Assembly: GCF_004795835.1 (NCBI RefSeq)
Contig: NZ_CP039249.1
Location: 3,261,001 to 3,325,000, forward strand
DNA: 64,000 nt
Direction of reading: 5' to 3'
Source: Sphingomonas sp. PAMC26645
GTDB taxonomy: Bacteria > Pseudomonadota > Alphaproteobacteria > Sphingomonadales > Sphingomonadaceae
In this document: positions 615 through 28,875 of the stretch, piece after piece
How the letters are laid out: each line of letters opens with the position of its first letter
Position numbering within the stretch: the stretch's first letter is position 1
The notes under the pieces: generated by a model
Told to the model about the DNA's origin: nothing
The model's database searches: none
Seen by the model: the letters and a program-made list of their open reading frames with translations, nothing else
Translations under genes and position numbers: made by a program

Positions 615-2546
615 TCAAATCTCGACCTGACTGCCCAATTCAACGACGCGGTTCGTCGGCAGGCGAAAGAACTCCATCGCGCTTTCTGCATTGCGCAGCA
701 TCCACGCGAACAGCTTTTCGCGCCAGATCATCATGCCGGGCTTGTCCGACGCGAGCAGCGTCTGGCGGGATAGGAAGAAGCTGGTGTCCATCATCTTGAA
801 GTCCGCACCGCAATTATGGACCTGGCGCAGCGCCGCGGGGACGTCGGCGTCCTCCATGAAGCCGTAGCGCAGCACGAGGCGGTGGAAACCGTCGCCGAGT
901 TCCTCGCGCACCGCACGGTCATGCGCAGGCCAATAGGGCTGGCCGACGATCTTGACGGTGAGCAGGATGACGCGCTCGTGCAGCACCTTGTTGTGCTTGA
1001 GGTTGTGGAGCAGCGCGTGCGGCACGCCGTCCGCGGTCGAGGTCATGAATACCGCTGTGCCCGGCACGCGCGATGCCGAACTCGCCGCCGAGCCGATGAA
1101 GACCTTTATCGGCATCGCAGCCTCGTGCATCCGGTCGATCATCAACTGCCGCCCCTTCGACCACGTCGTCAGGAAGGTGAAGATGATGAACCCGACCAGC
1201 AGCGGGAACCAGCCGCCGGCCGGCACCTTGGTCAGATTGGCCGCGAAATAGGCGCCGTCGACGGTAAAGAAGATCGCCAGCAGCGGGATCGCCGCGATCT
1301 TCGGCCAGTTCCAGAGGCGGAATAGGACGACGCCGAGCAGGCACGTGTCGATGAACATCGCCCCGGTCACCGCAATCCCGTACGCGCTCGTCAGGTTCGA
1401 CGAGGTGCGGAAGAACAGCACGAGCAGGATCACCATCACCATCAGCGCGCCGTTGACGAGCGGGATGTAGATCTGGCCGGCGGTCGAGGCGCTGGTGTGC
1501 TCGATCCGGAGGCGCGGGATGAAGCCGAGCTGGATCGCCTGCTGCGTTACCGAGAACGCGCCCGATATTACCGCCTGCGAGGCGATCACCGCGGCCATCG
1601 TCGCGAGGATGACGAGCGGAAGCTGGAGGCTTTCGGGGGCGAGATTGTAGAACGGGCTGACCAGCGCCTCGCGACCATCGCGGAACAGCAGCGCGCCCTG
1701 CCCCATGTAATTGAGGATCAGCGCGGGGAGTACGAAGAACAGCCACGACAGGCCAATCGGCTTCCGGCCGAAATGCCCCATGTCCGCATACAGCGCTTCC
1801 GCGCCGGTGACAGCGAGGACGACCGAGCCGAGTGCGAGGAACGCCCGCTCGGGATCGATGATGAAGAACTCGACCGCATAATGCGGCGACAACGCCCAGA
1901 GCACCTCGGGGGTCTGGACGATGCTGAGGATTCCGAGCACCGCGATGACGCTGAAATACACCAGCATGATCGGCCCGAACACGAGGCCGATGCGCGCGGT
2001 GCCGCTCTTCTGCACCCAGAACAGCCCAATCAGGATGACGATCACGATCGGCAGCACCAGTCCGGCAAAGGCGGGCGCGGCGACCGCAAGGCCCTCGACC
2101 GCGGACAGCACCGACACCGCGGGCGTAATCATGCTGTCACCGTAGAACAGCGCCGTCGCGAACACGCCGAGCAGGATGATGCCCTTGCTCCAGCGCTTGG
2201 TCTTGGTCTTGCCCGAGACGAGTGCGAGCAGCGCGAGGCTGCCGCCTTCGCCCTTGTTGTCGGCGCGCATGATGATGATGACGTACTTGACCGTCACGAC
2301 GATCATCATCGACCAGAACATCAGGCTGATGACGCCCATGATGTGCGCCGCGTCGAGCGCGAGCTTGTGGTGGCCGGCGAAGGTCTCGCGGAAGGCGTAG
2401 AGCGGGCTGGTGCCGATATCGCCGAAGACGATGCCGATAGCACCGAAGGCGAGCTTCAGCATGCCGTCGGAGTTGTGATGCCCCGGCTCGAGATCAAGAT
2501 TGGCGGGTGGCACGGTCGAGGCCGCGGCGGTCTGGTCGACGCTCAC
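615..2546 (-). CDS. kup: KUP-family potassium uptake transporter
   Basis: A 643-residue integral membrane protein of the KUP/HAK/KT family, which imports K+ with protons across the inner membrane. The N-terminal half holds the family signature regions ([17 protein letters not shown] near residue 37, then [12 protein letters not shown] near 98). About twelve hydrophobic segments follow, and a C-terminal cytosolic domain of about 150 residues ends the protein. Length is normal for bacterial Kup. The start is a GTG at 2546 without a strong Shine-Dalgarno sequence. It stands alone; the 5' flank carries a palindromic repeat and then the divergent-facing Lrp/ald pair. Confidence 0.95.
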
Positions 2547-2716
2547 TGGACGGTGAATCGACCCGGAAGTGCAGCAATCTTCATCGAATTTCCGATTTCA
2601 CCCTGTGCCCCAAGCGCGCGCATTTAGCATGAGGGCCGGAAGGCGGCAACGGCGAGGCGGGCAACGTGGATTAACTGGGGCTGATCGGACTAGTATCGAA
2701 GCGTTGCCTACACTTG

Positions 2717-2826
2717 CTCCCCTCCCTGGAAGGGAGGGGTTGGGGGTGGGTCGGCCTGCTTGTGCCGCCGACGTTCGGTAATGCGGAAGCCGACCCACCC
2801 CCGCCCCTCCCTTCCAGGGAGGGGAG
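2717..2826. repeat. Palindromic intergenic element, family C copy 1
   Basis: Inverted repeat with arms beginning CTCCCCTCCCTGGAAGGGAG, each arm itself a small hairpin, followed by a GGGTTGGGGGTGGG stretch and its complement. A second copy is at 61279. Lies between the kup promoter region and the 3' end of the Lrp-type regulator gene. Confidence 0.9.
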
Positions 2827-2841
2827 AAGAGTCGCCGGCGT

Positions 2842-3282
2842 TCAGCGCCTTATCACCTCGCGGATGACGAAGTGCGAGGCGAGCCGGGTTACCCCCGGCA
2901 ATTGCGACAGAGTCTCGCGGTGGATGCGTTCGAACGTCTCGCCGTGACGGATCTCGACGTGGAGCATATAGTCCGCCTCCCCGCTCATCAGGAAGCACTG
3001 GACGACCTGCGGACACTCGACGATCTCCGCCTCGAACGCCGCCATCGTCTCCTTGCGCTGATCCCGCAGCGTGACGTTGACGAGTACGATGCTCGGATCA
3101 CCGCGCGCTGCCTGCGACAGCACCGCACGGTAACCGACGATCGCGCCGCTCTCCCGAAGCTGCGCGACCCGGCGATGCGCGGCGCTCGCCGACAGTCCGA
3201 CCGCGTCGCCGAGCTCGGCGCTGGTGAGGTCGGAATTGGCGGCGAGCAGGTCCAGAATCCTGCGTTCGATCGTGATGCTCAA
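2842..3282 (-). CDS. Lrp/AsnC family transcriptional regulator
   Basis: N-terminal winged helix-turn-helix (ERRILDLLAANSDLTSAELG, then GLSASAAHRRVAQL) followed by an AsnC-type ligand-binding domain with the usual 'V.....G..D....V' pattern (CFLMSGEADYMLHVEIRH). Starting at the TTG at 3282 gives 146 residues, the usual family length. An ATG at 3369 is also in frame but would add 29 residues unlike the family and would crowd the divergent promoter, so TTG is preferred with moderate certainty. It is transcribed divergently from alanine dehydrogenase, the classic arrangement for an alanine-responsive activator, so it probably controls ald (inference). Confidence 0.88.
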   Translation of the reverse strand: MSITIERRILDLLAANSDLTSAELGDAVGLSASAAHRRVAQLRESGAIVGYRAVLSQAARGDPSIVLVNVTLRDQRKETMAAFEAEIVECPQVVQCFLMSGEADYMLHVEIRHGETFERIHRETLSQLPGVTRLASHFVIREVIRR

Positions 3283-17919: not shown

Positions 17920-19590
17920 CTACGCAACTACTGTATCCTCGACAACTTCGGTCGTGTCGCGGCGGGATACTCTTACTGCTTCTTCGGCGGTGGTCTGGCC
18001 GGAGAGGACGAGGTCGCGGGCCGATTGCGCCAGGTTCGGCGACTTCGCGAATGCGTGCGCGGTGATTTCGGATTCGTGGCCGTCGGTGTTGATCAGGCGG
18101 CGGATCGTGTCGTCGATGCGGACCGCTTCGAAGACGCCGATACGGCCCTTGTAACCGGTCTGGTTGCAGTCTTCGCAGCCTTGCGCGACGTAGACGACCG
18201 CGTCGGAGGCGATGCCGAGCAGCGGCGCGACCGTGTCCGACGCGGGGACGGCCTTGCGACACGTCGGGCACAGGCGGCGCACGAGCCGCTGCGCGATCAC
18301 CGCGCGGAGCGTCGAGGCGAGCAGGAAGCTCTCGACCTTCATGTCGCGCATGCGGGTTATCGCGCCGATCGCGTCGTTGGTGTGGACGGTCGACAGCACG
18401 AGATGGCCGGTCAGCGACGCCTGCACCGCGATCTCGGCGGTCTCGCGGTCGCGGATTTCGCCGACCATCACGACGTCGGGATCCTGGCGGAGGATCGCGC
18501 GCAGGCCTGCCGCGAAGGTCAGGCCGACCTTCGGGTTGACCTGGGTCTGGCCGACGCCGTCGACGGCATACTCCACCGGGTCCTCGACGGTGAGGATGTT
18601 GCGGCTTCCGTCGTTCAGCAGGCGGAGCGCGGCGTAGAGCGAAGTGGTCTTGCCCGAGCCGGTCGGGCCGGTGACGAGGATAATGCCGTTCGGCTCGCTC
18701 AGCGCTTCGTTGAGCAGTGCGAACAATGCGGGCGGCAGGCCGAGCGCTTCGAGGTCGATGCCGGCGTTCTCCTTGTCGAGAATACGCAGCACCACGCGTT
18801 CCCCTGCGCGGCTCGGCAGCGTCGAGACGCGGACGTCGAGCAGCTTGCCACCGAGCGTCAGGCCCATGCGGCCGTCCTGTGGGACGCGGCGCTCGGCGAT
18901 GTCGAGGCGCGCCATGACCTTGATGCGGCTGACCACCACCGGGGCGACGTTGGGCGGCATACGCAGCGTTTCGCGCAGCACGCCGTCGATGCGCATGCGG
19001 ACGACCAAGCCGCTCTCGTACGGCTCGATGTGGATGTCGGACACGCCGTTGCGGGCGGCGTCGGCGATGATGCCGTTGATGAGGCGGATCGCGGGAGCGT
19101 CGTCGGCGGTGTCGAGCAGATCCTCCGCGGTCGGCATGTCGCCGGCGAGCAGGTCCAGTTCGTCGCCCATGCCGACTGCGGCGAGCGCGTTGGCCTGGCC
19201 GTCCATCGCGTAGACGTTCGACAGCAGGCGGTCGAACGCGACCTGCTCGACGAATGTCACGTCGAACGGGCGGGCGAGGTAGCGGCGAAGTTCGAGCAGG
19301 ACTTTCGGGTCCGCGCCGGCGCGCATCGCGATGGTGAGGTGGGAATCAGTGTCGGTGTGGTCGACTACGACGCCGAACTTTCGGGCGAAGGCATAGGGGA
19401 TCGTGATCTGGGGGAGATCGGTCGAGGATACCGCTGCACTGCTCCCCTCCCGCTCGCGGGAGGGGTTGGGGGAGGGAATGACATACCCCTCGATCGCGTT
19501 GTCGATGATAGAGGCAGGCCCTCCCCCGACCCCTCCCGCAAGCGGGAGGGGGGAAGTAAGCTCGATCTCGTGGCCTTCGCGGATGATCAT
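17920..19590 (-). CDS. gspE: Type II secretion ATPase GspE, with in-frame repeat insertion
   Basis: A 556-residue secretion ATPase: N-terminal GspE/PilB domain, then Walker A GPTGSGKTT near residue 307, an Asp box (LTVEDPVEYAVDGVGQ), Walker B/His box, and a four-cysteine zinc site (CPTC near 441, then CEDC). It powers pseudopilus assembly at GspL/GspF. The ATG at 19590 overlaps the gspD stop (ATGA), which fixes the start. Residues 13-50 are encoded by a family D palindromic element lying between MIIREGHEIELT and the conserved N-domain (LPQITIPYAFARKFG). The frame is kept, so the product is probably functional. Confidence 0.96.
   Translation of the reverse strand: MIIREGHEIELTSPLPLAGGVGGGPASIIDNAIEGYVIPSPNPSREREGSSAAVSSTDLPQITIPYAFARKFGVVVDHTDTDSHLTIAMRAGADPKVLLELRRYLARPFDVTFVEQVAFDRLLSNVYAMDGQANALAAVGMGDELDLLAGDMPTAEDLLDTADDAPAIRLINGIIADAARNGVSDIHIEPYESGLVVRMRIDGVLRETLRMPPNVAPVVVSRIKVMARLDIAERRVPQDGRMGLTLGGKLLDVRVSTLPSRAGERVVLRILDKENAGIDLEALGLPPALFALLNEALSEPNGIILVTGPTGSGKTTSLYAALRLLNDGSRNILTVEDPVEYAVDGVGQTQVNPKVGLTFAAGLRAILRQDPDVVMVGEIRDRETAEIAVQASLTGHLVLSTVHTNDAIGAITRMRDMKVESFLLASTLRAVIAQRLVRRLCPTCRKAVPASDTVAPLLGIASDAVVYVAQGCEDCNQTGYKGRIGVFEAVRIDDTIRRLINTDGHESEITAHAFAKSPNLAQSARDLVLSGQTTAEEAVRVSRRDTTEVVEDTVVA
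19442..19553. repeat. Palindromic element, family D copy 2, inside gspE
   Basis: Inverted repeat with CTCCCCTCCCGCTCGCGGGA and the complementary arm, closely matching the copy in ccmH (5941). It lies wholly inside the gspE reading frame near the N-terminus and is translated into a Pro/Gly/Arg-rich segment (SPLPLAGGVGGG ... PSPNPSREREG). Confidence 0.9.
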
Positions 19591-21800
19591 TTCTTGGGTC
19601 GCACGACCATCGTCGAGGTGCGTACCGGGACGGCGATACGCGGGTCTTCGATGCTGCCGGGGATCGGTGCGCTCGGGATCGGCGGGGCGGCGCCCATGTA
19701 GTCGCGGACGAGTTGGTCGATCGACGGCTCAGCGCCCGGCTCCTGCAGACCCTGTTGCAGGCGGACATAGCCGTAGCGCTGCTCGGTCAGCTTCCGGCTG
19801 TCCTCGGCGGTACGCAAAATCGTTGGGCGTATGAAGATCATCAGGTTGGTCTTCGACCGCTGTTTCGCCTTCGAGGTGAACAGATGGCCGAGCACGGGGA
19901 TGTCGCCGAGCAGCGGGATCTTCTCGATCGTGCGGCGTTCATTGTCGTCGAGCAGGCCGCTGATCACCGCGATCTGGCCGTCGTCGACGGTGCGGACGGT
20001 CTCGACCTCGCGCTTGTTGAGGATGAGGTCGCTGTTGTCGCTCGATACCGGCCCCGCGATCGAGCTGACCTCGAGGCGGAGGTTGAGCTTCACCGTACCG
20101 GACGAGTTCACCTGCGGCCGCACGGTCAGTTCGATGCCGACATTCTGGCGCTGCGTGGTGCGGAAGGCGTTGTCGAAATTGGTGCTGAGCGCCTGCCCCG
20201 TGGTGATCGGGATCTCCTGCCCGACGAGGCTGTGCGCCTCCTGGTTGTCGAGCGTGACGAGGTGCGGGACCTGGAGCAGGTTTGAGGTCGTGTCGCTCTT
20301 CACCGCGTTGATGATCGCGCCGAAGAACGTGCTGCCGATCTTGCCACCGAACCCGCCAAAGCCGCCGGTAGCCGCGAGGATCGACGCGATCGCCGACTGC
20401 TGCAGCGCGTCCGCCGCGGCATTGGGCGTGTTCGTTTCGGTCCGCGTGCCATCGGGCGCGACCACCGTCGTACCGTTGCCGCCGATCGAGCGCGCGCCGA
20501 TCGCGCCGGCAATCTGGAGGATGTTGGGCGCGGAGTTCGAGAAGGTCGATGCACCGAACGCGCCGCCGCTCGGATCGCCGACGATGAACTGCGCCCCGAG
20601 CGTGCGCGCGGTCGAATCGGAGACCTCGGCGACGATCGCCTCGACGAGTACCTGTTCGCGGCGCGTGTCGAGTTGACGGACGACCTCGTTGAGCTGACGC
20701 TGGATCTCGGCGGGGGCGGCGATGACGATCGCGTTGGCGCCGGCGAAGCGCGTGACGACCACCGCAGACCGGCCGGCAGACGTGATCGCGGCCTGGCCGG
20801 AGCTGGACGCGCCGCCGGCCGTGGGGCCAGACTGTGGGATCTGTGGTTGCGAAACATTCGACTGTCCGCCGGACGCGCCGTTGGTGCTGCTCGATCCGAA
20901 GTTCGAGCGCGACAACGCCGTCTGCACCGGCTGGGTCGGAGTCTGGCCGACGAGTTCCTGCAACACCGGCAGCAACTGCTCGGCATCGGCGTTCTCGAGG
21001 AAAACGACCTTGATCTCGGTGCCGTTGCGCGCTTTCTGGTCGAGGTCGGCGGCGACCTGCGCGAGGCGGGCGACGGTGGTCGGATCGCCGCGCAGGGCGA
21101 CCGCGTTCGAACCCTCGACCGCGACGACCGATGCGCTCGGACCGGCACCTGCGCCACCGCCCTGCCCGCCCTGTCCGCCACCCGTGCCGGCGCCGATGAG
21201 CCCCTGGAGCGCAGTCGCGATTTCCTTCGCACTCGCGTTCTTAAGCGCGACGACGCGGGTGGAGGATGTGTCGGTGTCGATCCGGCGGAGGACTTCGCGG
21301 ATGCGGCGGATGTTGTCGGCGAAATCGACCACGACGAGGCTGTTGCCGCCACGGTTCGCGCTGACCGAGCCCTGCGCGCTGACCAACGGGCGGACGGTCT
21401 CGACCGCGGACTGCGCGTCGATCGCGCGAAGGCGGATGATCTCGGTGACGTAGCTGTTGCGCGCGGCACCCGCGACGCCGATCCGGCTCGGCTGCGAAGC
21501 GGCGTTGTCGAGCGGCTGAACGCGGAACGCCCCGCCCGAGGTCGGCACCGCGACGAGGCCGTTGGCGCGCAGCGTCGAGAGGAATATCTCGAAATATTCG
21601 GAGCGCGACAGCGGCCGATCGGTGACCACCGTCACCTTGCCGGCGACGCGGTTGTCGATGATGAACGTGCGCCCGGTGACCTTGGCGGCATCGGCGATGA
21701 ACGCGCGGATGTCGGCGTCGCGGACGTTCAGCGTAGTCTGGGCATGAACGCCGGCCGCCAGTGCGAGAGCTACGACGGGGCCGAGAAACAGTTTTTTCAT
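19587..21800 (-). CDS. gspD: Type II secretion outer-membrane secretin GspD
   Basis: A 737-residue secretin. It has a signal peptide (MKKLFLGPVVALALAAGVHAQ region), N0 to N3 periplasmic ring domains, and the C-terminal secretin domain with the signature VPLLGDIPVLGHLF and the segment VPHLVTLDNQEAHSLVG. Gly/Ser/Gln-rich linkers occur around residues 205-215 and 290-330. It forms the outer-membrane exit channel. The start lies in the gspC stop and its stop overlaps gspE, so gspC-D-E are coupled. Confidence 0.97.
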   Translation of the reverse strand: MKKLFLGPVVALALAAGVHAQTTLNVRDADIRAFIADAAKVTGRTFIIDNRVAGKVTVVTDRPLSRSEYFEIFLSTLRANGLVAVPTSGGAFRVQPLDNAASQPSRIGVAGAARNSYVTEIIRLRAIDAQSAVETVRPLVSAQGSVSANRGGNSLVVVDFADNIRRIREVLRRIDTDTSSTRVVALKNASAKEIATALQGLIGAGTGGGQGGQGGGAGAGPSASVVAVEGSNAVALRGDPTTVARLAQVAADLDQKARNGTEIKVVFLENADAEQLLPVLQELVGQTPTQPVQTALSRSNFGSSSTNGASGGQSNVSQPQIPQSGPTAGGASSSGQAAITSAGRSAVVVTRFAGANAIVIAAPAEIQRQLNEVVRQLDTRREQVLVEAIVAEVSDSTARTLGAQFIVGDPSGGAFGASTFSNSAPNILQIAGAIGARSIGGNGTTVVAPDGTRTETNTPNAAADALQQSAIASILAATGGFGGFGGKIGSTFFGAIINAVKSDTTSNLLQVPHLVTLDNQEAHSLVGQEIPITTGQALSTNFDNAFRTTQRQNVGIELTVRPQVNSSGTVKLNLRLEVSSIAGPVSSDNSDLILNKREVETVRTVDDGQIAVISGLLDDNERRTIEKIPLLGDIPVLGHLFTSKAKQRSKTNLMIFIRPTILRTAEDSRKLTEQRYGYVRLQQGLQEPGAEPSIDQLVRDYMGAAPPIPSAPIPGSIEDPRIAVPVRTSTMVVRPKK

Positions 21801-22624
21801 TGGGGGGGCGCGATCGTGATGGCGAGCGGCAGGGTATCCTGGCCGCGTTCTACGGTGATGGGGACGTTGCCGCCGCCCGCGAAATCCTTGGCGATGCGGT
21901 CGAGATCGCCGGGACCGGAAACGGGACGCCCGCCAATCGAGGTGACGACGTCGCCGTCCTTGAGCCCGGCTGAGCGGAACGCGTTGCCCGAGCCTTGCGA
22001 GCGAACGGTGAGCCCGCTGATGCGGCCGCCGTCGATGCGGGGGATGAAGCCGATCTCGCTGCGCAACTGCGCGACGGGGATGCCGACGACGGGGGCAACG
22101 GCACCGGGCGCACCCGCGGGTGCCGCGCCCGGGACGACCGGCGTGACGGCGCCCGACTGGTCGAGGAACAGGTCCTCGTCGGCGCCGCCGCGGTCGATCG
22201 TGACGTGATCGAACGCAACCGCCTTGAGACGCACGCCGGGCTGGATCTCGTCGCCGACCGCGACGCTCTGCTGGACGCCGTCGGGGCCGGCGATGATCGC
22301 GGAACTGCGGCCCATCGCTTCATCCATCCGCGTGCCGAACAGGGTCAACTGGAGCGACGTGACAGTGGCGGGTGCGCCCGCCGCGCCACCGAGGCGGAAG
22401 AACGGATCGAACCCGCGCAGGATGTCGGCGGGCGAGCCCACCACCATCGGCGCGGCCGGACGCCAGTCGCCGAGTGGCGTGATCGGCGTCACGATCGTCC
22501 ACGCCAGCCGCGCGCACTGCACCGCAAGCCCGGCCAGCAGCGCGAGTTCGACGACACTATAGACATTCACGACCGGCATACGCCGCAAGATACGGCGCGC
22601 CCGCGCGTCCAGCTTCAATCGCAT
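21797..22624 (-). CDS. gspC: Type II secretion protein GspC
   Basis: A 275-residue bitopic protein: one transmembrane segment near residues 20-42, a homology region that binds the secretin N0 domain (about 70-150), an Ala/Pro/Gly linker, and a C-terminal PDZ domain (GLKDGDVVTSIGGRPVSG). It couples the inner-membrane platform to GspD and helps choose substrates. It is the first gene of the 12-gene operon. No PhoB-type repeat was seen in its 137-bp 5' flank. Confidence 0.93.
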   Translation of the reverse strand: MRLKLDARARRILRRMPVVNVYSVVELALLAGLAVQCARLAWTIVTPITPLGDWRPAAPMVVGSPADILRGFDPFFRLGGAAGAPATVTSLQLTLFGTRMDEAMGRSSAIIAGPDGVQQSVAVGDEIQPGVRLKAVAFDHVTIDRGGADEDLFLDQSGAVTPVVPGAAPAGAPGAVAPVVGIPVAQLRSEIGFIPRIDGGRISGLTVRSQGSGNAFRSAGLKDGDVVTSIGGRPVSGPGDLDRIAKDFAGGGNVPITVERGQDTLPLAITIAPPQ

Positions 22625-22761
22625 CCGCGACCCACCCCAATTTCCCGCTCTCTTCGTCGCGTAGGCATGCCATGTTACAATTCCGCGTCAATGGCTTGCG
22701 CGTTGGTTGCTTCGATTCTGAGGGGGTAGCGCTTCGCGTCGGCGATGGGCAGAAGACGCTC

Positions 22762-23418
22762 ATGTCCGATCCTGTCCCGTCCAGCGGCTCCGGCCTGCCC
22801 CCCGAAGCGATCTTCGCGCGGCTGTCCGTGCCCGGCGTGCAGCGCGTACCTAGCCCGAAGCTCGACCTGTTCGTGCGACGCGACTTCCTGCCGCCGGACC
22901 TGTGCGCGACGCTGATCGAGCGGATCGACGCGGTGCGGCGGCCGTCGACGATCTCCGATTCGAACGGCGATGCGAGCTATCGGACCAGCGAGACGGGCGA
23001 TCTGTCGCCGCTCGATCCGGTCGCGATCGAGGTCGAGCGCCGGATCGCGGCACTGACCGGACTCGACCCGGTGTACGGCGAACCGCTCCAGGGGCAGCGC
23101 TATGCGGTCGGGCAGGAGTTCAAGGGACACACCGATTATTTCGAGCCGAACGGCGTCGATTATCAGCGTTATTGCGGGGTCGCGGGCAATCGGACGTGGA
23201 CCGTCATGATCTACCTCAACCAGCCGGAAGCCGGCGGCGCGACGCGGTTCAAGGCGATCGACAAGATCGTCCAGCCGGAGACGGGCAAGCTGCTGGCGTG
23301 GAACAACCGGCGGGCCGATGGGAGCATGAACCCGGCGACGCTGCATCACGGGATGAAGGTGCGCGCGGGGGTCAAGTATGTGATCACCAAATGGTTTCGC
23401 GAGAAGCCCTGGGGTTAG
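22762..23418 (+). CDS. 2OG-Fe(II) oxygenase, prolyl 4-hydroxylase-like
   Basis: A 218-residue cytosolic dioxygenase of the prolyl 4-hydroxylase alpha-subunit type. The iron ligands are visible as HTD (HTDYF, near residues 123-125) and a distal His (HHGMKV near 195). A Lys in KYVITKWF is placed to bind 2-oxoglutarate. It hydroxylates a prolyl or related residue of an unknown target. The ATG at 22762 is chosen over a frame-open extension to 22672 because the extension resembles no family sequence. It lies divergent from gspC. Confidence 0.87.
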   Translation: MSDPVPSSGSGLPPEAIFARLSVPGVQRVPSPKLDLFVRRDFLPPDLCATLIERIDAVRRPSTISDSNGDASYRTSETGDLSPLDPVAIEVERRIAALTGLDPVYGEPLQGQRYAVGQEFKGHTDYFEPNGVDYQRYCGVAGNRTWTVMIYLNQPEAGGATRFKAIDKIVQPETGKLLAWNNRRADGSMNPATLHHGMKVRAGVKYVITKWFREKPWG

Positions 23419-23685: not shown

Positions 23686-26493
23686 TCAGAACGTCGTGCT
23701 GATCCCGAGCGTGAACACCTGACCCAGGTTATACCGGTTGATGTACACCTTGTTGCCGTTCTCGAACGTCTGGCCCTCGGTGAAGCGCGTCTTGGTCAGG
23801 TTGCGTGCTTCGGCCTTCACCTCGAACTTGGCGCCGCGCAGTTCGACACCCTGGCGGGCGACGAGGTCAAGGCGGATGCCGGGCTTCTCGATGATGTCGG
23901 GCAGGAAGCCCGTGCCGCCGAGGTTCGACGGGCCGCGGTTGGTTACGCGGTCGCTGGCGTAGTTGAACAACAACGTGATCTGCGACAGCCGCTTGGTGTC
24001 CTCCAGCCCGAGCTGGACGTTGACGAGGTGGTCCGACTGGCCGGTGAGCGGCGCGCCGTCGCGGAAGTTACCCGTGGCGGGCGCGAAGCCGGCCTGGCAG
24101 CCCGCGACCTTGGTCGTCTGGTCCACCACGTTCGGGACGCAGCTGCCGTCCACCGTGATCGACGACTGCGTATAGGTGTAGTTGGCGATGAACAGCAGGC
24201 GGCGCGTCGCGAAGAAATCGCTGCCGAGCGTGTCGAGCGGCACGTATTTCTGGAACTCGACCTCGCCGCCGTACAGCTTGGCCTTGGGCAGGTTGGTGAA
24301 GCCGGTCTGGAGACGATCGTCGGCACCGGTGTAGAAACCGACCTGCTCAATCGGCTTGTCGATCCGCTTGTAGAACGCGCCGAGCGTGAAGCGCTGGTCA
24401 CGCGCGAAGAACCACTCGTACCGCGCATCGAGATTGTAGAGCTTGGTATCCTGCAACAGCGGGTTACCGAAGAACAGGCGATCCGATTCAGGATCGCGGA
24501 ACTGCTGTGGTGCAAGCTCGCGGAACTGCGGGCGCGAGATCGTCTTCGAGGCGCTCGCACGAAGCTGCATGTCGGGCGCGAAGTTCCAGGTCAGCGTCGA
24601 GGCCGGCAGGAAGTAATCGTTCTTCAGACGCGTCGTGGTCGCACCGATCGGGGTAACCCGCTCGTCCGCCGTCTCGTAGCGCACGCCGATCGTCGCGCGG
24701 ACACCGTCGGTCGCCTCGGCCTCGGCCTGGACATAGCCCGCGTGGATCCGCAGCGACGCATCATATTGATACGCACCGAGCGGGGTGTTGAACTGCAATT
24801 CGAGCGAGTTCAGCGGATCGTTGGTATCGATCGCCAGCAGATAATCCGGACGGAGCAGATTGTACGGATAGCCCGGCGCGGTGCCACCGCCGCGCGGCGT
24901 CTGGTAATTGAACTGGAGACGCGACGACGTGCGCTTCGTATCCGAGTAGAAATAGCCGGTCGACAACGTCATCGGCCGATCGGTCGACAGCTTGTACGCC
25001 GCATCCGCCTGGCCGCTGTAGAGGTCTTCCTTCAATTCGCTGAAGATGATCGACGCGAACGGCGAGAAGCGCTGAGTCACCTGGTAGGCACCGTTGCACT
25101 GCGCGCCGCCGGTCCCGTTCGGATCCTGCACCGTGATCGGCTGGCCGGTCGTGGTGGTGTTCGAGCAGAGATAGTCGAACTGCCGCTCGTACGGCGCATT
25201 GCGCTTCGAATTAGCGTAAGCGCCGCGGACGTCGAGCGTCAGCGCGTCGACGGGCTTGAACGCACCGACCAGCTGGCTCTCGAACAGCTGGCGTTCGAAC
25301 CAGTTGGTGTTCTGCTGGAAGCGCAGGCCGCTCGAGTTGTTGTAGGTGGTCGCCGCCGACCCACGCGCCTGCTTCAGCGTGTCGTGGATATAGACGTTGG
25401 TCAGCTTGATGCTGTTCTCGCCGAACTCGTAGCCGACGCCGATCAGCGCGTTCGCGACGATCCGGTTGTCGGTCAGCAGGGTCTGGAAATCGTTGCGGAG
25501 CAGCCCCTCGTTGGTGACCGAATCCTGCTGCGTGATGCTGCGGGTGCGGAAGGTGTTGCTCGCGCTGACCGACGCGATCACGCCAAGCCGGCCCGAACCG
25601 ATGTCGAACACCGAGCCGCCGCTGATCTCGCCCGAGAAATTGGCGGGAAGCTGGTTGTTGCGCTGGAGCAGCGAGGTCGAGGCGTTGCTGAGCGTCGCGG
25701 CCTGCGCGGCCGAGATGTTGCCGGTACCGCTCGGCGCGTTCTTGATGAAGCTCGGCACTTTCCGCGTGCCGTCGTCGAAGCCGATCCAGTCGGCATCGCC
25801 ACCATAATAGGTGTAGCCGAGTTCACTGGTGGTCGCGGTGTCGGCCGAGACCGAGCCGCCGAACGACAGGAAGTTCTTGTCCGGGATCGCCTTGGTCGTG
25901 AGGTTGATCACGCCGCCGCCGAATTCACCGGGATAGTTCACCGAATAGGTCTTCTGGACCAGCGCAGAACCGACGATCGTGGTCGGGAAGATGTCCAGCG
26001 GGACCGACCGACGCAGCGGCTCGGGGCTCGGCAGTGGCGAGCCGTTGAGCAGCGACGACGAGTAGCGATCGCCGAGACCCCGGACATAGACGAAGCCGTT
26101 GCCGACGATGCTGAGACCGGTGACGCGCGACAGCGCGCCGGCGATGTCGCCTTCGCCGGTGCGTGCGATGTCCTCGGTCGACAGGATCGAGACGACCTGC
26201 GGGGTCGCGCGGACGAAATTCGGGATGTTGCGGCCGACGACGACGATGTCCTCGCCGCCATTGGCGTCGAAGCCAGGAGCCGACACTTCGGCCTGCGCTC
26301 CGGCGGCCTCCGCTCCGGCAGCTTGGGGCGCAGACACGTCCACCGGCGTCGAGGTCGGACCGGTCTGCGTCGTCGAGGCGGGTGGCGAGGCGGCTGGAGC
26401 GGGTGCAGCGCCGCCGGTCTGGGCGAGCACCGCGGGCGCGACCAGCTGCGAGGTCAGGAGAAGTAAGGTGGCATAGCCGAAGCGCGTTTGCAT
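23686..26493 (-). CDS. TonB-dependent outer-membrane receptor
   Basis: A 935-residue TonB-dependent receptor: signal peptide ending near AVLAQ, an Ala/Pro-rich spacer, then a plug domain (DIVVVGRNIPNFVRATP, VYVRGLGDRYSSSLLNG, YPGEFGGGVINLTTK). A 22-strand-type barrel ends in an aromatic C-terminus (FTLGISTTF). Such proteins import scarce nutrients using the proton-motive force. It lies 108 bp downstream of the lipoprotein gene on the same strand with a strong hairpin between. A PhoB-box array precedes that lipoprotein, so phosphate-starvation control of both is likely. The ligand is unknown; a phosphorus compound is an inference. Confidence 0.93.
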   Translation of the reverse strand: MQTRFGYATLLLLTSQLVAPAVLAQTGGAAPAPAASPPASTTQTGPTSTPVDVSAPQAAGAEAAGAQAEVSAPGFDANGGEDIVVVGRNIPNFVRATPQVVSILSTEDIARTGEGDIAGALSRVTGLSIVGNGFVYVRGLGDRYSSSLLNGSPLPSPEPLRRSVPLDIFPTTIVGSALVQKTYSVNYPGEFGGGVINLTTKAIPDKNFLSFGGSVSADTATTSELGYTYYGGDADWIGFDDGTRKVPSFIKNAPSGTGNISAAQAATLSNASTSLLQRNNQLPANFSGEISGGSVFDIGSGRLGVIASVSASNTFRTRSITQQDSVTNEGLLRNDFQTLLTDNRIVANALIGVGYEFGENSIKLTNVYIHDTLKQARGSAATTYNNSSGLRFQQNTNWFERQLFESQLVGAFKPVDALTLDVRGAYANSKRNAPYERQFDYLCSNTTTTGQPITVQDPNGTGGAQCNGAYQVTQRFSPFASIIFSELKEDLYSGQADAAYKLSTDRPMTLSTGYFYSDTKRTSSRLQFNYQTPRGGGTAPGYPYNLLRPDYLLAIDTNDPLNSLELQFNTPLGAYQYDASLRIHAGYVQAEAEATDGVRATIGVRYETADERVTPIGATTTRLKNDYFLPASTLTWNFAPDMQLRASASKTISRPQFRELAPQQFRDPESDRLFFGNPLLQDTKLYNLDARYEWFFARDQRFTLGAFYKRIDKPIEQVGFYTGADDRLQTGFTNLPKAKLYGGEVEFQKYVPLDTLGSDFFATRRLLFIANYTYTQSSITVDGSCVPNVVDQTTKVAGCQAGFAPATGNFRDGAPLTGQSDHLVNVQLGLEDTKRLSQITLLFNYASDRVTNRGPSNLGGTGFLPDIIEKPGIRLDLVARQGVELRGAKFEVKAEARNLTKTRFTEGQTFENGNKVYINRYNLGQVFTLGISTTF

Positions 26494-26527
26494 GGCCGAA
26501 TATCCAGATCAGGGGGTCTATGGGCGA

Positions 26528-26560
26528 ATGCCGGGGTGGTCTTTGGAACCACCCCGGCAT
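26528..26560 (-). terminator. Intercistronic hairpin between lipoprotein and TonB receptor
   Basis: Perfect 13-bp stem (ATGCCGGGGTGGT with ACCACCCCGGCAT) around a 7-base loop, with no T-run after it on the minus strand. It may act as a partial terminator or an mRNA-stability element, setting the expression ratio of the two genes. Confidence 0.6.
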
Positions 26561-26601
26561 CGCTGCTCACATCATCGACTGCGGAGAGCCGACCGGAAGC
26601 G

Positions 26602-28230
26602 TTACCGGCCGTTGCAGTTGAAGTAGACCGACGTGAAGATCGGCGGGCCCTGGTCCTGCTTCGAGGCATCCGCCGCGCGGATCGTCGAGCGATCGGCCTG
26701 GCTGGTTTCCTGCGCGATCAGGTTGAGGCAGGCGACGGTCGCAGGCGACTTCACGATGCCGTTGATGAAGCGCATGTCCGAACCACCGCGCTGGCGGATA
26801 GCGGCCGGCGCAAGCGCGGTCTGCACGAACGTGAAGTTCGAATACTGACCGAAGGTACGGGGCAGCAGGTCCTCGGCACCGTTCGAGTCGATCTCGGTCG
26901 AGAACGAGTCGGCGGTCGCACCCAGCAGACGCTGTGCGGCGATGATGAACTGCATGAAGCCGCGATAGCCGTTGTCGATATCGTAGCCGTCGTCGTCTGC
27001 GCCGGTGACCGCGAAATACTTGATGTTCGTGGTGCCGCCGAAGATCTCGATGCCGTCATCGGCCGAGTTGTGGCTCTGGACATGATCGATCGTCGTGCCC
27101 GACCCGGTGCCGCCGAGCGTCAGGCCCTGGAGCTCGTTGCCGTCGCTGATCGCGATGCCGCTGTAGCGGATCTGGACATACTGCATCGTGCCGCTGTTGT
27201 CGGCCGCCGTTGGGCCACCGTAAAAGCGCCCGGTGACGCCTTCGATCGCCTGCTGGCAGGTCGTGCTCGTGCCGCCGGCGTTGTTCGGACCGGTACCCGT
27301 GGCGCAGACCGCGACGGGGGCGCGGCCGAGCAGGATGATCCCGCCCCACTGGCCCTGCGTCGCATCGCTGACGCCGTTGGCGGTCAGGTTCTGCTGCGAC
27401 GTGAAGATGATCGGTGCGTCGCGCGTACCGACGGCGCTGATCTTCGATCCGCGGTTGACGAGCAGGAGATCGGCGGTGACTTCGGTCGAGTCCGCGGCGA
27501 CGACGACGCCCGGTGCGATCGTCAGCGTCACGCCGGTATCGGCACCGGTCGTGCCGACATCGGCGCCGACTTCGGTCTGGCCGCGCAGGCGGTAGAACAC
27601 GCCGGCGATCTTCGGCAGCGTCAGGCTGGACGTGATGTTGGTCGGCAGGCGGCAGGCGCGGAACGTCTGGACCAGGCCGTCGTCGATCGTGCCGGTCGGG
27701 CACGCTGCGGCCGAACCGCCGGCGCCAACAGCAGGAACCGCGGTGCAGCGCGCGGTCGTGCTGCCGCCGAACTCGGCCGACGTGGAGGCGCAGGTCCAGC
27801 CCTGGAACGCGGTGTCGGTCGGTCCGTTGAGCGCGCCGACGAAGTTGGTGCTGGCGAAGAACGGGTTGATCGACGACGGGTCGGTCGCGGTCGTGGCGGA
27901 CGTCGCGGCGGTCGGGTACACGCCGGTCAGGACGTTTGTGCCGCTGACGTTGTTGTTGGTGCCAGCGTTGACGATCGCAAGCTGCTCGTCGGCGCTGATC
28001 GTGATCGTGCCGTCCGAGCGGCCGCCCGAGGTCGAGGCGAACTGCGCTGCCGTGATCGCCGATGGGGTCGGCGTCGGGGTGGACGGCGTCGGGGTCGGCG
28101 TAGCTGGCGGGGTGATGATCACCGTACCTGCGCCCGGCGAAGCGACGTCGTCGGCACCGCCGCAAGCGGTGAGTGCGAGGCAGGCCGTGCCGGTCAGCAG
28201 GATCGTGCCGAGGCGAGTAAAGCTGGTCAT
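26602..28230 (-). CDS. Putative surface lipoprotein, beta-helix-like, paired with TonB receptor
   Basis: A 542-residue lipoprotein with lipobox ALTAC (Cys23, +2 Gly). A Thr-Pro repeat linker (residues about 41-57) follows, then a Gly/Thr/Asn/Asp-rich region with recurring short segments (GIILLGRAPV, GIEIFGG, GYDIDNGYRG) suggestive of a right-handed beta-helix. No enzyme motif was recognised. It is first in a likely two-gene unit with the receptor, downstream of a PhoB-box array. It recalls phosphate-starvation surface lipoproteins exported by type II secretion in Caulobacter (ElpS), and a gsp operon lies close by; homology was not tested. Function is unknown; a nutrient-binding or cell-surface role is inferred. 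Confidence 0.75.
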   Translation of the reverse strand: MTSFTRLGTILLTGTACLALTACGGADDVASPGAGTVIITPPATPTPTPSTPTPTPSAITAAQFASTSGGRSDGTITISADEQLAIVNAGTNNNVSGTNVLTGVYPTAATSATTATDPSSINPFFASTNFVGALNGPTDTAFQGWTCASTSAEFGGSTTARCTAVPAVGAGGSAAACPTGTIDDGLVQTFRACRLPTNITSSLTLPKIAGVFYRLRGQTEVGADVGTTGADTGVTLTIAPGVVVAADSTEVTADLLLVNRGSKISAVGTRDAPIIFTSQQNLTANGVSDATQGQWGGIILLGRAPVAVCATGTGPNNAGGTSTTCQQAIEGVTGRFYGGPTAADNSGTMQYVQIRYSGIAISDGNELQGLTLGGTGSGTTIDHVQSHNSADDGIEIFGGTTNIKYFAVTGADDDGYDIDNGYRGFMQFIIAAQRLLGATADSFSTEIDSNGAEDLLPRTFGQYSNFTFVQTALAPAAIRQRGGSDMRFINGIVKSPATVACLNLIAQETSQADRSTIRAADASKQDQGPPIFTSVYFNCNGR

Positions 28231-28318
28231 GCGAAGGACTCCCGAGTCGTACCGTTGATTGTTCGGATCGACCCAGGCTCCCCCCTGCCGACCGTGACAT
28301 GGCGGTTAGGCTGGCCAG

Positions 28319-28378
28319 ATGACGCCGCGATGCGATTTCGATGACGCTTGCATGACTATGATATGACGGTTCGATGAC
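28319..28378 (-). promoter_or_regulatory. PhoB-box array upstream of lipoprotein/TonB receptor unit
   Basis: On the plus strand ATGAC occurs at 28319, 28341, 28352, 28363 and 28374, with the degenerate ATGCG at 28330 in the remaining slot: six units in exact 11-bp phase. Read on the minus strand these are GTCAT direct repeats, the half-site and period of Pho boxes bound by the response regulator PhoB. The orientation points to the lipoprotein start at 28230, about 90 bp downstream. Binding is inferred. Confidence 0.8.
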
Positions 28379-28539
28379 TGTCGATTGGGGCGCTACTGAC
28401 GCACGGGGTTGAAAACCGCGCTATCGAACACATCTCTTCCGATCCGGCGCGCGATGATTTACAGGCGCTGCCAGAGTCACCGCCCACGCATTCCTGCGTC
28501 CGGACGGTCAGACCGATATTACAGGATTATCTCACGACA

Positions 28540-28875
28540 ATGGCCTCTTTCAAGGACCCCAGTTTCCAGGACCGCACGAGCAGCGCAGCCGCCGCCAAGC
28601 AGAAGGCGCTCGAAGCGCTGCGTGCCAAGCCGCCGATCGACGAAGCCGTCGTAGCCGAGCGCCTTGCCGCGCGCGAGGCCAAGGAATTGGCCGAGCGCGA
28701 GAAGCGCGCTGCGAAGCGCGCTGCAGAGGATGAGGCCAAGGCTGCGAAGAAGGCTGAGGCCGAGGCTGCTGCTGCCAAGAAGCGCGAGGCCGAGGCTAAG
28801 GTCGAGCTGACCGATGCCGAGAAAAAGGCGATTCGTGACGCCAAGTATGCGGCGCGGAAGAACAAGAAGAAGTGA
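28540..28875 (+). CDS. DUF6481 family protein
   Basis: A 111-residue, highly charged Ala/Lys/Glu-rich protein predicted to be one long helix or coiled coil (residues about 35-100), ending in a basic tail (AARKNKKK). The start MASFKDPSFQDR is typical of DUF6481 proteins of sphingomonads. Function is unknown; composition would suit nucleic-acid or ribosome association. It is a single gene, divergent from the PhoB-box promoter, followed by a clear terminator. Confidence 0.85.
   Translation: MASFKDPSFQDRTSSAAAAKQKALEALRAKPPIDEAVVAERLAAREAKELAEREKRAAKRAAEDEAKAAKKAEAEAAAAKKREAEAKVELTDAEKKAIRDAKYAARKNKKK

Follow-up and report, generated by a model that had tools for sequence, protein, structure and literature searches.

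A run of evenly spaced pentamers lies ahead of a lipoprotein gene of Sphingomonas sp. PAMC26645 and raises the question of which regulator would bind there and which gene it would control. We addressed this question within the window, i.e. the whole stretch of 64,000 nucleotides of DNA under analysis, as well as in the genome to which it belongs and in related loci. The analysis indicates, with a probability of about 0.88, that the array, 60 bp long, serves as a minus-strand PhoB operator in the promoter of an ElpS-type lipoprotein gene. The features concerned are compiled in Table 1.

Direct reading of the DNA reproduced each coordinate given in the preliminary description, with ATGAC at 28319, 28341, 28352, 28363 and 28374 and ATGCG at 28330. 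On the minus strand, these pentamers correspond, as had been claimed, to direct repeats of GTCAT in 11-bp phase with CGCAT in the one remaining slot. In this direction the six slots are followed by ten bases, the sequence TAACCG (28308-28303) and the lipoprotein start at 28230.

Table 1. Positions of the array and of the genes discussed (numbering of the window, unless a locus handle precedes the position).
Feature	Position	Strand	Remarks
Slot 1 (distal), half-site GTCAT	28374..28378	-	direct reading; footprint position -55
Slot 2, half-site GTCAT	28363..28367	-	footprint position -44
Slot 3, half-site GTCAT	28352..28356	-	footprint position -33
Slot 4, half-site GTCAT	28341..28345	-	footprint position -22
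Slot 5, degenerate, CGCAT (plus strand ATGCG)	28330..28334	-	footprint position -11
Slot 6 (promoter-proximal), half-site GTCAT	28319..28323	-	footprint anchor, position 0
-10-like element CCTAACCG	28303..28310	-	TA begins 10 nt past slot 6
ElpS-family lipoprotein gene	26602..28230	-	542 aa; lipobox LTAC; start codon 88 bp from array
13-bp GC-rich hairpin	26528..26560	-	no T run; in lipoprotein-receptor gap
TonB-dependent receptor gene	23686..26493	-	PF00593, PF07715; lipoprotein partner
2OG-Fe(II) oxygenase gene	22672..23418	+	PF13640; ORF as listed, true start perhaps later
gspC, type II secretion	21797..22624	-	PF11356
gspD, type II secretion secretin	19587..21800	-	TIGR02517 above cut-off
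DUF6481 gene	28540-28875	+	divergent; start 161 bp from array
Small TPR-like protein loci	L006 1097-1459; L190 1104-1556; L194; L195	- (L006, L190)	

The phasing was assessed by a scan over periods 6-30 that recorded every 5-mer with four or more exact phased copies out of six. With all 5-mers and periods considered, the array was the single 5-of-6 case in the window, and one 4-of-6 case each was obtained at periods 15, 18 and 21. Among Markov controls, which cover period 11 only, ten third-order windows contained no 4-of-6 case, and ten fifth-order windows contained one 4-of-6 and no 5-of-6 case. The earlier assertion that such phasing is improbable by chance is thus upheld at period 11, where the Markov windows did not reach 5 of 6. 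Moreover, the pattern GTCAT-N6-GTCAT-N6-GTCAT with up to two mismatches yielded 9 matches in the own genome (4,283,956 bases), four of which are overlapping registers of the array; the only two perfect matches both lie inside it, so that the genome holds no other perfect three-unit place. The same pattern written backwards, likewise with up to two mismatches, gave no match in the own genome. The array, whose 6-bp linkers differ, was reported neither by a repeat finder at default settings nor by Tandem Repeats Finder, and a search of Rfam at gathering thresholds returned three tRNAs only.

The preliminary description had proposed scoring the region with a PhoB weight matrix. The matrix that we employed comprises 59 E. 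coli PhoB-bound ChIP-seq sites from a table in PMC10294691. Among the 127,966 window positions on both strands, boxes of the array ranked 1, 2 and 6. The top box, formed by slots 1 and 2 (28362-28379), attained 18.69 bits compared with a median of 18.75 bits for the E. coli sites; ranks 2 and 6 belong to the boxes at 28351-28368 (slot 3) and 28340-28357 (slot 4). Ranks 3, 4 and 5 lie outside the array, at 2124-2141 (+), 28517-28534 (-) and 21784-21801 (+); they show no phased arrays and possibly reflect chance. When the upstream regions of homologues were scored, the forward strand exceeded the reverse strand in 29 of 30 nearer and 62 of 78 further regions.

The E. coli Pho box replaces the -35 element, about 10 nt ahead of the -10 element. 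The window array resembles the Pho boxes of E. coli and other bacteria in having GTCAT-type half-sites repeated directly every 11 bp ahead of a -10 element and agrees with the experimental PhoB sites underlying the matrix; at the sequence level, its box also takes the -35 place about 10 nt before the -10-like element. Correspondingly, TA follows the half-site by 10-11 nt in 27 of 30 upstream regions, the own genome included.

Does this genome encode the cognate regulator? One PhoB scored above the curated cut-off, among 16 nearly full-length matches, each covering some 200 or more positions of the PhoB model, and its DNA-binding domain aligns with that of E. coli PhoB (1gxp) with an E value of 2.7e-24. 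The own phoB gene sits behind PhoR-like, PstS-like, PstC, PstA and PhoU genes. PhoB, PhoU, PstC and PstA exceeded their curated cut-offs; the PhoR and PstS matches fell below theirs, and a TIGR00975 scan of the own genome found no pstS. PhoB/PhoR and Pst are accordingly present at the level of these matches, PstB being outside the scan.

The half-site pair occurs elsewhere in the genome. With up to one mismatch, the pair motif GTCAYNNAANYGTCAY gave 15 matches in 14 places of the own genome, and its backwards control gave none there. Apart from the array itself, matches precede a pstS-like gene, a gene for a PiT phosphate transporter, another TonB receptor gene and the gene for a small TPR protein, and they are also found between phoD and a divergent TonB receptor gene, where the half-sites face the receptor. 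Since 8 of the 14 places, as judged by eye, are in or near genes without evident phosphate role, the pair motif by itself lacks specificity. Among the 61 genomes, own included, we found at least 18 distinct perfect three-slot places. Seven of the 18 listed precede elpS homologues, three precede phosphate porins (Porin_O_P), one PhoX and three a small TPR-like protein (one identified by scanning and two by sequence). The remaining four have no clear phosphate link; they concern a chemotaxis-receptor-like gene, a place with no downstream ORF passing the filter, a short tandem repeat and a divergent or unclear arrangement. The perfect three-slot GTCAY array before the chemotaxis-receptor-like gene, a gene classified by its sequence, belongs to locus L165 (~1501-3027).

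We then turned to conservation, since absence of phased repeats upstream of orthologues had been named as evidence against a PhoB array. Of the 61 genomes searched, with the own genome counted, 43 encode lipoprotein relatives, and upstream DNA covered 30 loci (own plus 29 relatives; 13 matching genomes were left out). For L030, L035, L038 and L039 the start points are approximate, with no start codon, and their distances are therefore rough. The footprint was anchored on GTCAY followed by TA 10-11 bases on; conservation of slot 6 and of the TA is thus not independent. The anchor is carried by 27 of the 30 nearer regions, own included, and absent from 3, and the slot counts rest on those 27. 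Exact GTCAY was found at -55 in 24, at -44 in 10 and at -33 in 19 anchored sequences; the -22 slot is exact in 3 and has at most one mismatch in 19, and the -11 slot is exact in none. Off-phase positions contained exact GTCAY in 0.03 sequences on average, with a maximum of 2. When six close duplicates are set aside together with the own genome, the counts from -55 to -11 are 17, 5, 12, 1 and 0 of 20. One sequence, L038, has the anchor and no phased slots.

Further homologues were taken from named genomes and comprise 78 sequences, two of the 80 loci having been dropped for short upstream sequence. Half of them (39) carry the anchor and 39 do not. Among the 39 anchored sequences the -22 half-site is exact in 28, with an off-phase mean of 0.09 and a maximum of 4. 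An array score shared by about 0.3% of shuffles was attained in 35 of the 78, and 43 scored below 4, the majority of these lying outside the Sphingomonadales by title. Upstream of the homologue in a Caulobacter sp. MAG (L087), GTCAC, GTCCC, GTCGC, a degenerate slot and GTCAC follow one another in phase. Taken together, phased slots are present upstream of many homologues. In the Sphingomonas relatives, the slots most often exact are -55, -33 and 0, i.e. at 22-bp steps, each as wide as two 11-bp units, with weaker slots between them, and the -10-like consensus among relatives reads CCTAgC; among the more remote homologues it is mostly -22 that is exact, indicating a layout that shifts from one group to another. 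With five of six slots exact, the window genome stands at the extreme, and its nearest relative, which has an identical lipoprotein, carries GTAAC in slot 4. The slot corresponding to 28330 is degenerate in the homologues too (exact in 0 of 27 nearer and 1 of 39 further anchored sequences), which argues that the irregular slot is not noise.

The gene behind the array shows the hallmarks of an elpS gene. Its product has a lipoprotein signal peptide whose lipobox cysteine, Cys23, is invariant in 24 aligned sequences, and it is homologous to Caulobacterales members: it shares 39% identity over 369 aa (E 1e-73) with the protein of the Caulobacter sp. MAG L087, which is not CC0170 itself, and 40% over 378 residues with a Xanthomonas homologue. 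A TonB receptor gene lies next to it and T2SS genes lie near, the same order of lipoprotein, TonB receptor and T2SS genes as at the elpS (cc0170) locus of Caulobacter crescentus. According to PMC2996285, the cc0170/T2SS arrangement is also found in Sphingomonas alaskensis and others. The linear domain order, however, differs from that of the Caulobacter and Xanthomonas proteins, whose C-terminal segment matches residues 86-147, that is, the N-terminus, of the window protein. We do not regard domain order as defining for the ElpS family, and on the alignments homology is not in doubt.

The segment in question, FF..TNFVGA...GWTC, lies at the C-terminus in Caulobacter and Xanthomonas as well as in homologues from other sphingomonads, and the comparison took in L029, L033, L079, L080, L087 and L094. 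The window lipoprotein thus looks like a natural circular permutant. In other families, open frames of 900-1000 aa contain two copies of the segment and could represent an intermediate of circular permutation. Scans of Pfam and NCBIfam assigned no family to the lipoprotein, and a profile search of solved structures gave no match with E up to 0.01. The predicted model has many short strands (mean pLDDT 63.6); none of its fold matches was significant (best E 0.035), and many of those listed are proteins that we take to be parallel beta-helices. The wider homologue set consists of the best 80 of at least 578 confirmed loci, chosen by similarity to L079; by record title, these relatives belong to Caulobacterales, Sphingomonadales, Xanthomonadales and others. 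Across the class the lipoprotein is patchy, with matches in 6 of 190 genomes.

The neighborhood was compared in regions from 20 of the 29 other relatives, each of at most 11.5 kb (one of 6.3 kb). All 20 regions have a TonB receptor gene adjoining the lipoprotein gene, and 14 of them contain gspC and gspD matches. Among the best 80 of at least 578 loci, many of which lie on contigs that end early, the TonB receptor was found in 74, GspC in 47 and GspD in 49. Unlike the Caulobacter elpS locus, the window has a 2OG-Fe(II) oxygenase gene between receptor and gspC. This gene has matches in 18 of the 20 relative regions and in 27 of the 80 named loci, some of these latter matches being weak (31-46% identity) and elsewhere in the locus.

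The lipoprotein and receptor genes lie on the same strand, separated by a gap of 108 bp. We compared this gap in the window and 17 of the 29 relatives: the best perfect inverted repeat in the relatives measures 7-12 bp, some with long loops, these repeats having no shuffle control behind them, and GTCAY is absent from 16 of the 18 gaps. Since the hairpin of the window lacks a T run, it is possibly an intercistronic element that sets expression.

These observations bear on the question of whether the array acts on the lipoprotein gene only. According to the preliminary description, it drives the lipoprotein/receptor pair; by computation the lipoprotein gene is well supported as its target, and the claim regarding the pair, with the hairpin in the intervening gap, is supported in part. 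A single phosphate-controlled operon, in which the array drives both genes by read-through and the hairpin only lowers receptor levels, would be an addition to the PhoB operator and no alternative to it. The shared strand, the 108-bp distance, the lack of a T run and the constant lipoprotein-receptor order in relatives speak for such an operon, as does the Caulobacter PhoB regulon, which includes the T2SS and various TonB receptors (PMC11208175). On the other hand, inverted repeats are found in the same gap of relatives too, and the Caulobacter receptor counterpart cc0171 is reported as constitutive and independently regulated, a statement made in PMC2996285 as data not shown. We therefore hold a joint operon to be a serious possibility, though with somewhat less than even odds.

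As for the PhoB operator itself, the competing explanations fare considerably worse. Head-to-tail binding is common in the OmpR/PhoB family, and the 15 other nearly full-length matches to the PhoB model encoded in this genome leave room for another response regulator of this type at the direct repeats. We consider this improbable, given that half-site and spacing recur ahead of the pstS-like gene and the PiT gene, as well as between phoD and a TonB receptor gene, that the motif precedes Porin_O_P and PhoX genes in relatives, that the E. coli PhoB matrix singles out the array and that the Caulobacter counterpart is PhoB-dependent (PMC5172544). PhoB, the binder suggested in the preliminary description, is likewise favored as the likely candidate by the computed evidence of matrix, footprint, motif at phosphate genes and PhoB/PhoR/Pst/PhoU-type genes. 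Still less probable is a role of the array for the divergent DUF6481 gene, instead of or besides the lipoprotein gene. The array occupies the space between both genes and is 161 bp away from the start of DUF6481, yet half-sites and -10-like element face the lipoprotein gene at 26602-28230, to which the array had been said to point. Moreover, DUF6481 occurs in 2 of 20 relative regions and in 0 of 80 named loci, while many of these regions and loci have phased slots before the lipoprotein gene; as main target it was rejected for this rarity. Finally, a plus-strand ORF of 618 aa (26488-28344) overlaps the proximal part of the array, and the phasing might be regarded as chance or as a by-product of overlapping coding sequence. 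This notion is scarcely credible: the Markov windows never reached 5 of 6, and the phased conservation extends to relatives in which no conservation of the flanking sequence is visible. Chance phasing was rejected on the Markov controls and is contradicted by the footprint.

We thus return to PhoB as the probable ligand. Upon phosphate limitation, PhoR would phosphorylate PhoB, as in the known pathway, and PhoB dimers would bind head-to-tail on the 11-bp half-sites. With the promoter-proximal box in the -35 place, 10 nt before the -10-like CCTAAC, PhoB could then recruit RNA polymerase, resulting in production of the surface lipoprotein. The six slots could take three dimers. This scheme is in line with Caulobacter, where the elpS promoter is activated by phosphate starvation via PhoB (PMC5172544) and ElpS is made on phosphate starvation, released in a T2SS-dependent manner, surface-exposed and linked to alkaline phosphatase activity (PMC2996285).

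The standard Pho box consists of two 11-nt units (PMC4415409), whereas the window array has six slots, of which the one beside the proximal slot is degenerate in homologues. Promoters with several boxes or units are also known from E. coli ugp and the complex operators of Streptomyces (PMC4415409), and the three-box SphR sites of cyanobacteria likewise place more than one box at a promoter (PMC1906773). All of these operators serve different genes, and those outside E. coli also use different regulators, in contrast to six slots before an elpS-type gene; nevertheless, since multi-box Pho operators are known elsewhere, six slots are unusual yet no new kind. Among the open-access titles and beginnings of abstracts listed, none described such an array in sphingomonads. 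Judged from sequence, this is an ordinary regulator with a strong, conserved predicted operator at a gene already known as its target in another genus; the novelty lies in how far the array is conserved, in its six slots with a degenerate one among them, and in the reach into sphingomonads.

A more far-reaching interpretation, which appears rather doubtful, would ascribe to the elpS-type promoter of sphingomonads a conserved platform for three PhoB dimers, with strong half-sites every 22 bp and deliberately weak ones in between. The elpS-type gene rather than pst would then be the strongest and most cooperative PhoB target of the genome, and phosphate starvation would steeply switch on a lipoprotein/TonB uptake pair, the lipoprotein being a natural circular permutant.

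The PhoB-elpS link would extend from Caulobacter to a conserved putative operator in sphingomonads, where the ElpS/TonB-receptor pair likely serves to acquire phosphorus. The homologues moreover offer a natural promoter set of varied half-site strength and fixed phase, with which one could probe how many PhoB dimers are needed and what role the extra ones have.

Two further observations deserve mention. The small secreted TPR-like protein has phased GTCAY upstream in the own genome and in the three relatives looked at (Table 1), and it is possibly an unrecognised member of the phosphate regulon. In addition, two GANTC methylation-type sites (28237-28241 and 28244-28248) lie between array and start codon. 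In the Caulobacter elpS promoter, methylation of GANTC sites shifts with phosphate through PhoB (PMC5172544). Among 24 sequences, 17 contain GANTC within 100 nt before the start, compared with 10.8 expected, a mild excess that is reached in 2 of 300 shuffle rounds.
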